From: Sphingomonadales bacterium
Lineage (GTDB): Bacteria; Pseudomonadota; Alphaproteobacteria; Sphingomonadales; Sphingomonadaceae
Assembly: GCA_025352685.1 (NCBI GenBank)
Contig: JANXSN010000073.1
Coordinates: 49,248-113,247 of the forward strand
DNA: 64,000 nt
Direction: 5' to 3'
The position numbers were made by a program, and so were the translations under genes. Positions 37,493 through 41,145 of this stretch are shown here, piece by piece. A model generated the notes under the pieces. It ran no database searches, was not told the DNA's origin, and saw only the letters and a list, made by a program, of their open reading frames with translations. The first letter of the stretch is position 1. The number at the start of each line of letters is the position of its first letter.

Positions 37493-38380
37493 CTACGCCG
37501 TGGCCGCCATCGCCCCGACCAACCAGTCATGGAACAGCTTGACCGGTCGCGTCTCGAGGGCGCGCGGGCGGCAGACAAACCAATAGCTGTACGGGCTCTC
37601 GACCTCGACATCGAACACGCGGGTCAGTCTGGCATCCTGGGCACCCGTCAAATGGCTTCCGTGCATGAAGGCGACGCCTAACCCCTGCGCCGCGGCATCA
37701 AGCATCAATTGACCCGAATCGAACAAATCAGTCGACACCGGTTCAATCGTCGGCATCCCGACGGCCTTGCGCCATTCCGCAAACGTGTCGGGCATGTCGC
37801 GGTGCAAAAACACAGTCAGATCGGCCAGTTGCGCCGGCTTGGTCAAGGGCTGCCCGCCAACTGTAAGCGTGCTCGCAGCGATGGCGAATACCTCGTTCCG
37901 ATCAAGCCGGCGCGCGTAAAGCGCCGGATCGACGTCGCGTGAGAGCACGATTGCTGCGTCTATGCCGTCGCCCAGACGCGCCGTTGCGTGGCCGCCAGTA
38001 TCGATGTCGAGGTGTAACGCCGGGTGCGAGGCCCGCAGGTCGGGCAAGCACGGCATCAGGCGTTGCGAGGCAAACAACGGTAGCACGCCGAGCCGCAGCC
38101 GCATGATTCCGCCATGCCCCGCAATGGTTTCGATGGCATCGGACAGTTGGTCGATCGCGGGCGCCACGAGCGCCAGCAGTCTGTCGCCATCACCGTTCAT
38201 AACAAGTGCGTGGTGCCGTCGTTCAAACAGCGGCTTTCCGATGAAGCGTTCGAGTGATTGCAAGCGGCGGCTGAGCGCGGGCGACGACAGCGATAGTTCT
38301 TCGGCGGCAGCTTTCACCGATCCGCTACGGGCGACCGCAACGAACGCTTCGACTCCTGACAGCGATGGCAGACGACGCAT
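37493..38380 (-). CDS. LysR family transcriptional regulator (GcvA-like)
   Basis: RRLPSLSGVEAFVAVARSGSVKAAAEELSLSSPALSRRLQSLERFIGKPLFERR HTH. Confidence 0.92.
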   Translation of the reverse strand: MRRLPSLSGVEAFVAVARSGSVKAAAEELSLSSPALSRRLQSLERFIGKPLFERRHHALVMNGDGDRLLALVAPAIDQLSDAIETIAGHGGIMRLRLGVLPLFASQRLMPCLPDLRASHPALHLDIDTGGHATARLGDGIDAAIVLSRDVDPALYARRLDRNEVFAIAASTLTVGGQPLTKPAQLADLTVFLHRDMPDTFAEWRKAVGMPTIEPVSTDLFDSGQLMLDAAAQGLGVAFMHGSHLTGAQDARLTRVFDVEVESPYSYWFVCRPRALETRPVKLFHDWLVGAMAATA

Positions 38381-38467
38381 CGTCTTTGGTCCCGTTCCTT
38401 TGCGCAGCGACGATAAGACCGCGCTACCTCGCCAGACATTGAGCCTCAGCTGGCGTTCCGATGCAAG

Positions 38468-38510
38468 TTGCAATCAACGCAACCTCGATTATTCTTTTCG
38501 CACTTGCGAA
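38468..38510. promoter_or_regulatory. Two LysR-type (T-N11-A) dyads: TTGCAATCAACGCAA (38468-38482) and TTCGCACTTGCGAA (38497-38510)
   Basis: Inverted repeats TGC-N7-GCA and TTCGCA-CT-TGCGAA between lysR and the candidate sRNA. Confidence 0.5.
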
Positions 38511-38525
38511 GAGTTATGCTGCACT

Positions 38526-38601
38526 GCACATAGAAAATGCCTTTTAGGCATCCTCTCCTAAAACTTTTACGGGCCAGTCGGCAACGACTGGCCCCTTTTT
38601 T
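38526..38601 (+). ncRNA. Candidate small RNA ending in an intrinsic terminator
   Basis: Hairpin AUGCC-UUUUA-GGCAU, CAUCCUCUCCUAAAAC linker, GGGCCAGUCG-GCAA-CGACUGGCCC + U6; TATGCT -10-like element at 38515; no plausible ORF. Confidence 0.5.
38571..38601 (+). terminator. Rho-independent terminator with GCAA tetraloop
   Basis: 10-bp perfect stem 38571-38580/38585-38594 followed by TTTTTT on the + strand. Confidence 0.88.
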
Positions 38602-38611
38602 ACGTTCTGCC

Positions 38612-39925
38612 TCAGTCGCTGGTCTTTTCGATCCTCATGACGGCGTAAACGAGCAGTGCGAACGCCAGTACGGCCGCAAAAAGATAGGGCAAAGGTTGCC
38701 AGACCTCGTACAGTCCGATGCCAATTGAGGGCCCCAAGACAAATGACGCCCCGTTGATCGATGTGACCCGCCCTGCGACCGCCCCCTGAAGCTCGGGGCC
38801 GACTGCAAGCGACGATCCGGCGGTATAGCCCGGACGGGCAAAGCCGAATCCAGCCGACGTCAGGGCAAAAGCGACAGAAAGACCGTATAGGGTGTTCGAT
38901 GCGCTGATCATCAGGCATCCTGCGCCGCCGAGCGCCAAGCCGGTAATGACTAACGAGCGTGGCGCCATGTTCAACAGGGGAATGAGGCCCCATTGGACCA
39001 GAAGCGCAGCAAACGCGCCCGTCATCAGAACAAGACCGACCGACTGTTGTCCCAGCGTCGGATCGACGCCGAGCCTGTCGAGTACCAGAAACCCTATCGC
39101 TTGCCCGGCCATGGCCTGCGCGTGGCCCATCACCAGGCCGACGAGCATCCACGGCCAGATCCGCGCGTCCGTTATCTTCAATACCGCTGTTGACGGTTCG
39201 GAAACCGCTGCTGTGACACTGGCGCCAGTCAAATTACCCCCGATCGACGGGTAGCTGGTAGCAGCGCCGCGTGTCACGATGCCGGGAGTGTCGTTGGGCA
39301 GCCGTGCCCAAGCGGCTGCCAACACGACGAAACCCGTGAACGCAAAGAAATACGCCGGGCCGGCCAGGCCAACACCTGGCAGCACAAAAAATGGCGCGAG
39401 TGCCGGCCCCAATATCGTCCCCAGCCCAAAGGCGGAAGCCAACAGTGTCAGCGCCTTTGTTCTGTCTTCGCGTGTCGTTCGCGAGGCGAGGATTGCTTGC
39501 GCGGCCGGCGGTGCCGCCGCGCCAAACAAGCCGTAGATCACCCGCGCGCAGACAAAAGCAGCGATTGTCGCAACTGGACTGATTAGCCCGTTAATACCGG
39601 CAGTGAGAAACACGGCGCAAAGAAGCACGGAAACCGAAAAACCTGCCAGTCCGACCAGGACCATTCGCCGCCGGCCGGTATGGTCGGATTTTCGTGCCCA
39701 GATCGGCGCGGCGATGACCCAGACCAGCGCAGACACCGAAAAGGCGACGGCGATGACGTTGTCGTGGATCTTCAGCGATCGTCCGATTGCCGGCATCACC
39801 GACTGCAAAGCCGTATTACCCGCGCCGATCACCAGCATGACCATAAACAGCAATGCGAAATCGCGTTCAATTCGGGGCCTGGTCAGTTTGGGCCGCGCAA
39901 TCTTCAAAGAGGCAAGAGACGGCAT
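38612..39925 (-). CDS. MFS transporter
   Basis: VFSVSALVWVIAAPIWARKSDHTGRRRMVLVGLAGF-like loop motif; 12 hydrophobic segments. Confidence 0.88.
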   Translation of the reverse strand: MPSLASLKIARPKLTRPRIERDFALLFMVMLVIGAGNTALQSVMPAIGRSLKIHDNVIAVAFSVSALVWVIAAPIWARKSDHTGRRRMVLVGLAGFSVSVLLCAVFLTAGINGLISPVATIAAFVCARVIYGLFGAAAPPAAQAILASRTTREDRTKALTLLASAFGLGTILGPALAPFFVLPGVGLAGPAYFFAFTGFVVLAAAWARLPNDTPGIVTRGAATSYPSIGGNLTGASVTAAVSEPSTAVLKITDARIWPWMLVGLVMGHAQAMAGQAIGFLVLDRLGVDPTLGQQSVGLVLMTGAFAALLVQWGLIPLLNMAPRSLVITGLALGGAGCLMISASNTLYGLSVAFALTSAGFGFARPGYTAGSSLAVGPELQGAVAGRVTSINGASFVLGPSIGIGLYEVWQPLPYLFAAVLAFALLVYAVMRIEKTSD

Positions 39926-39954
39926 GTTTCGACCGTTAGGCCGGGAACCGCGTG

Positions 39955-41145
39955 CTAGTCGATCCAAATATGGAGGCGCCGCGTCATGCTGAGGTCGAGG
40001 ACGGCGACCAGGAAGTAACAGATGGCGTTACGGACCCGGTCGGGTACACTGCCGATTCCGCTGAACTCGACGAGATGGCGCTCGCATGCACGGGCCAACT
40101 CGCCATCGATGTAAAGACGCATCGCATCGGAAAAGGCGGCGCTGTCGATGCGCAGCATGATTTCCAGATTGAGGAATAGACTGCGCGGGTCGAAGTTGGC
40201 GCTGCCGATGTAGACAATATGATCAATCACGTAGAGCTTAGTGTGCAATCGACAGGGTGCATACTCGAATACTCTGGTGCCTTTGCGTAACAAACCGGGA
40301 AATGTGAAACGGGCCGCGGCAATGGTTGCCGCATTGTCGGTTTTTCCGGCCGTCATAACCCGCGCACGTCCGCGTTGCGCCACCCGGTCGATCAATCGCG
40401 TGAAGCGTGGTGTCGGTGCAAAATAGGCCGCAACAAGCGACGCATCGTTCGCACGCAGCAAATCGTCGCGGATCGTCCGCAACCACGGGGAGAGACGGCG
40501 AAGCGGTCCGCCGTGCAGCCAGCGCACGCTACCAACGGGGTTGCTCCATCGACCCAGCGCCTGGCGCAGGTCGCGCATCTTGGCTTTTGGGGTGTGTGTC
40601 CACGCGAACAATGTGTCGAAATAGCCTGTTAAACGTGCCGCCGCCGGTCCGTCGATGCGCAACCCCAAGTCGCGCCATGCTGTTTCTCCGCCGCCTGCGT
40701 CAAAATCCGCAAAATACGCGTCGGCAATGTTGAAACCGCCGATCAACGCGCGTTGTTCGTCGGCGAGCGCCATCTTCTGGTGGTTCCGCAGAAGATAGCG
40801 CCGCCCCCAGCGTGGGATAAATACGCAAACCTCAACTCCCGCCCGCTTGAGCGGCTTGAGGAAATCGTCTTGCCCCGTCGTGTCGCTGCCAAAGCCGTCG
40901 AGCACGAGCTTGACCGCCACACCCCGATTCGCCGCATCAATCATTGCGTCACGGACCCGGTGTCCGGCGGCATCGTGGGCAAAGATATAATACAGCAGCC
41001 GCAACGATGTCTGCGCGCCGTCGATGAGCGCAATCAGACCGCTCAAGCGCTCCTCCCCGCGTGTCAGCACGGTCAGCGTGTTGCCGTCGACGGTGTGGCG
41101 GTTCGTCACGCGTCGTGCTGTCGGCCTTACGGTGCGACTTGACAA
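39955..41145 (-). CDS. Phospholipase D-like / cardiolipin synthase family protein
   Basis: Two degenerate HKD regions ([50 protein letters not shown]). Confidence 0.9.

Follow-up and report, generated by a model that had tools for sequence, protein, structure and literature searches.

The SuhB RNA of Sphingopyxis granuli is a 61-nt, Hfq-dependent regulator that represses translation of thnR (PMC6563040), its target in tetralin degradation. It has a role in the catabolite repression of a biodegrading sphingomonad, and the inputs named for it are growth rate and polyhydroxybutyrate (PHB) granules, which favour transcription of suhB; neither LysR nor PhaR is named, and the review names no suhB transcription factor (PMC6563040). 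MmgR of Sinorhizobium meliloti is another studied relative, within Rfam family RF00519 (PMC7143759, PMC8401924). It is a 77-nt RNA tied to PHB storage, in the group defined by a standard 10-mer, and its named regulators are NtrC and AniA, with LysR control not mentioned in the literature covered. PhaR binds and represses mmgR (PMC12542648). SisA-D of Caulobacter crescentus find their targets by means of an anti-Shine-Dalgarno 10-mer, and CrfA acts as their sponge (PMC12559287).

The locus that we have analyzed lies in a 64,000-nt stretch of DNA from a member of the Sphingomonadaceae, hereafter the window. Its RNA shares with SuhB of S. granuli TFA the name, the bacterial family and the approximate size (61 versus the ~63 nt inferred here), and this is taken as the closest relative on the basis of name and host, not of sequence. 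With MmgR it shares the Rfam family and a PhaR/AniA site in the promoter. SisA-D are alike in family and in the order of weak hairpin, anti-Shine-Dalgarno stretch and terminator, and are multicopy within a genome, a trait shared by some relatives of the window; yet their 10-mer is UUUCCUCCCU, against AUCCUCUCCU here, and they are antagonized by CrfA. In the VtlR/LsrB-AbcR and OxyR-OxyS systems a LysR protein drives a trans-acting small RNA, as we propose for this locus, and OxyS is likewise divergent from its regulator gene. The likeness to oxyR/oxyS drawn in an earlier note on this DNA holds for the layout, and for nothing beyond it: VtlR/LsrB and OxyR are of another LysR subfamily with unrelated RNAs, and the window system belongs to neither. 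VtlR/LsrB was rejected as the identity of the window's LysR, since the published VtlR box (GCAT-N3-TG-N3-T; PMC7486931) is unlike the dyad found here and LsrB is said to occur in Rhizobiales alone.

The RNA and its structure

Judged by its match to the covariance model, the element on the plus strand at 38532-38609 belongs to the SuhB/MmgR small RNAs, a family already known, and represents their sphingomonad form. With cmscan the element scores 50.9 bits for RF00519 (suhB/mmgR, the alphaR8 family), where the cut-off is 41, and the model aligns end to end (positions 1-77 of 77). This is the sole RNA match above cut-off at the element, the OxyS family giving none. The earlier note had proposed a small RNA lacking an ORF, which the Rfam match and the fold bear out, but had taken it for an uncharacterized candidate of about 76 nt; it is a member of a family studied in S. 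granuli, and the promoter spacing suggests a transcript of ~63 nt. Plus-strand ORFs that cross the element (37962-38561 and 38537-38728) look spurious: relatives do not conserve the ATG at 38537, for which reason a coding reading of the second was rejected. The family is widespread, RF00519 being found in 28 of 31 near genomes and in 138 of 151 genomes spanning the order.

The RNA has the architecture of RF00519, a 5′ hairpin followed by a single-stranded pyrimidine stretch and then the terminator. The segment 38538-38601 folds with an energy of -27.6 kcal/mol (z = -5.8), and none of 200 shuffled sequences folds as well. The terminator is present exactly as the earlier note described it. Among 51 homologues from the window's family two-sided changes occur in all 10 of its base pairs, with a covariation score of 0.41 compared with 0.17 in shuffles, and on every measure the observed value was matched by 0 of 500 shuffles. 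The small upstream hairpin claimed before is also found; it is paired in 88% of cells across the alignment and varies little, so that covariation cannot reveal it. The pyrimidine stretch CAUCCUCUCC (38549-38558) is, as had been suggested, complementary to Shine-Dalgarno sequences, and is contained within AGGCAUCCUCUCC, 13 nt of the pairing region that are invariant in the 51 sphingomonad copies. The strict alphaR8 10-mer UUUCCUCCCU (in the sense of PMC12559287) is replaced in the window by AUCCUCUCCU; the form GGCAUCCUCUCC is found throughout the LysR-bearing family, where it is internally invariant, the standard 10-mer being the one found in the order's remaining families. We have therefore assigned the RNA to RF00519 as a diverged branch. 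The features of the locus are collected in Table 1.

Table 1. Features of the lysR-suhB locus, in window coordinates.
Feature	Position	Strand	Basis or detail
lysR, encoding a GcvA-like LysR-type regulator of 295 aa that may activate the sRNA directly	37493..38380	-	Pfam HTH_1, LysR_substrate
TTGCA-N5-CGCAA dyad (T-N11-A; TTGCAATCAACGCAA), putative LysR recognition site, centre ~-63	38468..38482		fixed position in relatives
TTTTCGCACTTGCGAA, putative LysR activation site overlapping the -35	38495..38510		second conserved promoter block
TGCACTGCA, PhaR/AniA-like site between -35 and -10	38520..38528		fits YGCRNYGCR
Putative -10 (CACATA)	38527..38532	+	conserved CATAT-like block, 17 bp after the -35
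SuhB/MmgR-type sRNA, ~63 nt	38538..38601	+	RF00519 match and fold; start inferred
5′ hairpin UGCCU-UUU-AGGCA	38538..38550	+	minimum free energy and centroid fold
Invariant AGGCAUCCUCUCC, holding the anti-Shine-Dalgarno pairing stretch	38546..38558	+	identical in 51/51 copies
Intrinsic terminator	38571..38601	+	10-bp perfect stem 38571-38594, GCAA loop, six T 38596-38601
MFS gene	38612-39967	-	ORF list; flanks the element

The divergent lysR gene and its association with suhB

The flanking lysR and MFS genes are both on the minus strand, as had been noted. The nearest NCBIfam model for the lysR product is GcvA, with a score below the GcvA cut-off, and its top match among solved structures is a glycine cleavage activator. 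MRRLP is the N-terminus conserved among orthologues, which makes the ATG at 38380 the most likely start codon. The TTG start at 38473 given in the ORF list is probably wrong, since lysR would then run across the promoter region.

How general is the association of the two genes? In named genomes a scan recovered the LysR orthologue, at 62-82% identity, from 80 loci. By Rfam scan RF00519 lies divergently beside the orthologue in 15 of 16 named loci, and by seed sequence suhB adjoins it in 77 of 80; the link between RNA and divergent LysR gene asserted in the earlier note is supported. The three named loci that lack a nearby suhB are L085, L098 and L111, and of these L098 retains promoter-like blocks CGCAGATGCACAACAT and TGCGCGCTGCACAA upstream of lysR, perhaps marking a relict or diverged RNA. 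The gene past suhB is MFS in the window and often a CDC48-type ATPase in relatives (by the S. parapaucimobilis annotation).

The two genes also tend to be present or absent together. Within the window's family suhB occurs in 86 of 86 genomes that have the LysR orthologue, and in 5 of 19 that do not. In the 151-genome sample the family's 73 LysR-positive genomes all have suhB, and it is missing from 11 of the 16 LysR-negative genomes (Fisher p ~1e-10 by genome and 4e-5 by genus, values that ignore shared ancestry). Sixteen further genomes of known suhB status follow suit: the three with no suhB, or one below the cut-off, lacked LysR, and 13 had both.

Some records met in this survey are irregular. 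At G006:C3:1152638-1153518 (L326, L328) the lysR orthologue is split between two frames beside an intact suhB, by frameshift or assembly error. Two records with typical Sphingomonas lysR-suhB loci (L040, L090) are under the names Arthrobacter sp. TPD3018 and Microvirga sp. SRT01, which are probably wrong. NZ_CP155751.1 (L293, L294), listed as an S. parapaucimobilis plasmid, bears the core genes polA, purH, rpoZ, rpmI and rplT and the lysR/CDC48 locus, and resembles a piece of chromosome or a second chromosome.

The promoter and its putative regulator sites

Both T-N11-A dyads reported between the RNA and lysR were located, TTGCAATCAACGCAA as listed in Table 1 and TTCGCACTTGCGAA at 38497-38510. 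By itself the first is unremarkable, 0.41 occurrences being expected by chance in the window; its significance comes from its fixed position in relatives. Alignment of promoters reveals three conserved blocks, comprising the dyad with consensus (G/A)TTGC(A/G)-N5-(T/C)GCAA, the block TTTCGCACTTGC overlapping the -35, and the CATAT-like -10. The -35 itself is TTGCGA (38504-38509), overlapped by the putative activation site, and a sigma-70 scan gave no promoter at the element. The window thus shows the arrangement expected of a LysR-activated small RNA, a T-N11-A dyad near -65 together with a second site near -35.

Scoring the dyad as present when at least 8 of 10 bases match, we find it at one fixed place in 60 of 61 promoters beside lysR, compared with 5 of 671 at other offsets. 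It is at the same place in 48 of 52 copies from genera of the family where lysR is mostly elsewhere (one of the 52, L020, is actually linked), against 6 of 572 at other offsets. The strongest argument that the dyad serves suhB in trans is its retention at promoters with no lysR next to them. It is absent from the copies in LysR-less genomes (0/4), from other families (0/13) and from own-genus paralogues (0/4). The earlier note had staked its proposal on conservation of the hairpins and LysR boxes in relatives that keep lysR, and that conservation is strong. In a search for a wider regulon in the window's own genome, perfect TTGCA-N5-TGCAA dyads were not enriched (3 sites versus 5 in the reversed control), and TTCGCACTTGC with one mismatch occurred at control level only.

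The LysR-less g37 genomes (L217-L220) keep suhB, TTCGCACTTGC and a relaxed PhaR-like site, while the dyad is missing. Since the second block is preserved there, part of it may be merely the -35. Three of the four g37 copies have a second, similar TCGCAC-type block upstream, and another regulator may have taken over.

The promoter also contains a match to YGCRNYGCR, the pattern to which published PhaR sites conform (PMC12542648, PMC6201568), and by a count made by eye 17 of 21 bases around TGCACTGCA agree with the S. meliloti phaP2 site. The motif is common in itself, with 65 matches in the window, below the 107 in shuffles. In the same stretch of promoter it occurs in 32 of 77 linked copies, 18 of 52 other copies of the family and all 11 own-genus copies, compared with ~1% in shuffles; thus it lies over the promoter in ~40% of copies, and is absent from more than half. 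PhaR-like sites are also found in 30 of the 80 lysR upstream regions, where 1.9 are expected. Among ORFs lying up to 12 kb upstream of phaB, no phaR was noticed. Extra SuhB copies within the genus (L016, L019, L112, L113) have the PhaR-like site and lack the LysR dyad, so that SuhB copies may differ in their control, as described for SisA-D.

Proposed control of SuhB and its consequences

Could the dyad be bound by some other regulator, distributed like LysR, with SuhB real and the adjacency in Sphingomonas incidental? Survival of the TTCGCACTTGC block in the LysR-less g37 copies, and the separation of lysR and suhB in many genera, would be consistent with this. But the genes are linked across several genera, the T-N11-A spacing falls at the usual LysR position, the dyad is lost from LysR-less genomes and the two genes are jointly absent, and we consider such a regulator unlikely. 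PhaR was rejected for this role by its spacing, the published sites being GC-N3-GC and the dyad GC-N7-GC. LysR regulators often have binding sites ahead of the genes that encode them, and in the window the region is common to both promoters; the dyads might thus serve autoregulation of lysR, the RNA being the passenger of a constitutive promoter. That the dyad stays at the same spacing from suhB when lysR lies elsewhere already disfavours this, and leaves it with a very small probability.

The alternatives that concern the RNA itself fare worse. A 199-aa plus-strand frame runs antisense to lysR, and the terminator could close a longer antisense transcript, with no discrete small RNA. Set against this, the RF00519 match spans the whole model, the promoter is conserved just upstream while the sequence from lysR to the dyad is not, and SuhB of S. 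granuli is a transcript of 61 nt; we give the antisense reading almost no weight. Nor is there much to recommend the two-state switch of the earlier note, in which UUUUAGG pairs with CCUAAAA to expose CAUCCUCU in a loop. Its seven pairs can all be drawn from the window's sequence, yet no more than 3 of 93 sequences have the full set, and the window and its own duplicate account for two of the three; the helix has no covariation above shuffles and is missing from the predicted fold. A second fold that is not conserved is most improbable as a functional switch.

The best explanation, to which we assign a probability of about 0.78, is that this is a SuhB/MmgR small RNA that is activated by LysR, is probably repressed by PhaR, and blocks translation. 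It draws on the homology, structure, conserved promoter and co-occurrence observed here. From these we infer that the LysR protein activates suhB directly: the divergently encoded, GcvA-like regulator would activate transcription by binding both the dyad at ~-63 and the site that overlaps the -35. In the weaker part of the proposal PhaR, a repressor that leaves the DNA when PHB granules form, probably binds TGCACTGCA and represses suhB. The ~63-nt RNA, presumably with Hfq, would then pair through CAUCCUCUCC with purine-rich ribosome-binding sites to block translation. Relief of PhaR repression by granules would join the repression of mmgR in S. meliloti to the effect of PHB on suhB in S. granuli.

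One lead concerns targets. The perfect seed complement AGGAGAGGAT is found in the window's own genome only opposite the RNA itself. GAGAGGATG, directly before the start of phaB (acetoacetyl-CoA reductase; L228 / L329) in that genome, is complementary to CAUCCUCUC of the RNA, and SuhB-phaB pairing is a possible direct link to PHB synthesis. GAGAG precedes the phaB start in 14 of 23 relatives, compared with 5 of 89 background genes of one species, phaB having been chosen after its match had been seen; as GAGAG also precedes phaB in two genomes without suhB, this test failed to discriminate, and the pairing is offered as a lead only.

On sequence grounds both the RNA family and the host group are known ones, and LysR is the well-supported predicted regulator. 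The control region, with its fixed-position dyad, looks new, and we have found no report of LysR or PhaR control of sphingomonad suhB in the open-licence literature. Tentatively, and at a little less than even odds, we suggest that across the Sphingomonadaceae the level of SuhB is set by one dedicated LysR protein and PhaR acting together, so that the RNA would combine a small-molecule signal with information on carbon reserves, and that PhaR acts at lysR as well in some species. If true, such a joint circuit would be undescribed for RF00519 RNAs in the open-licence papers covered. Comparison of more than 100 related genomes points to LysR as the predicted switch for suhB, with an exact candidate site, and to PhaR as a second candidate regulator that would account for the reported effect of PHB granules. 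A control step in bacterial carbon use thereby becomes directly testable.
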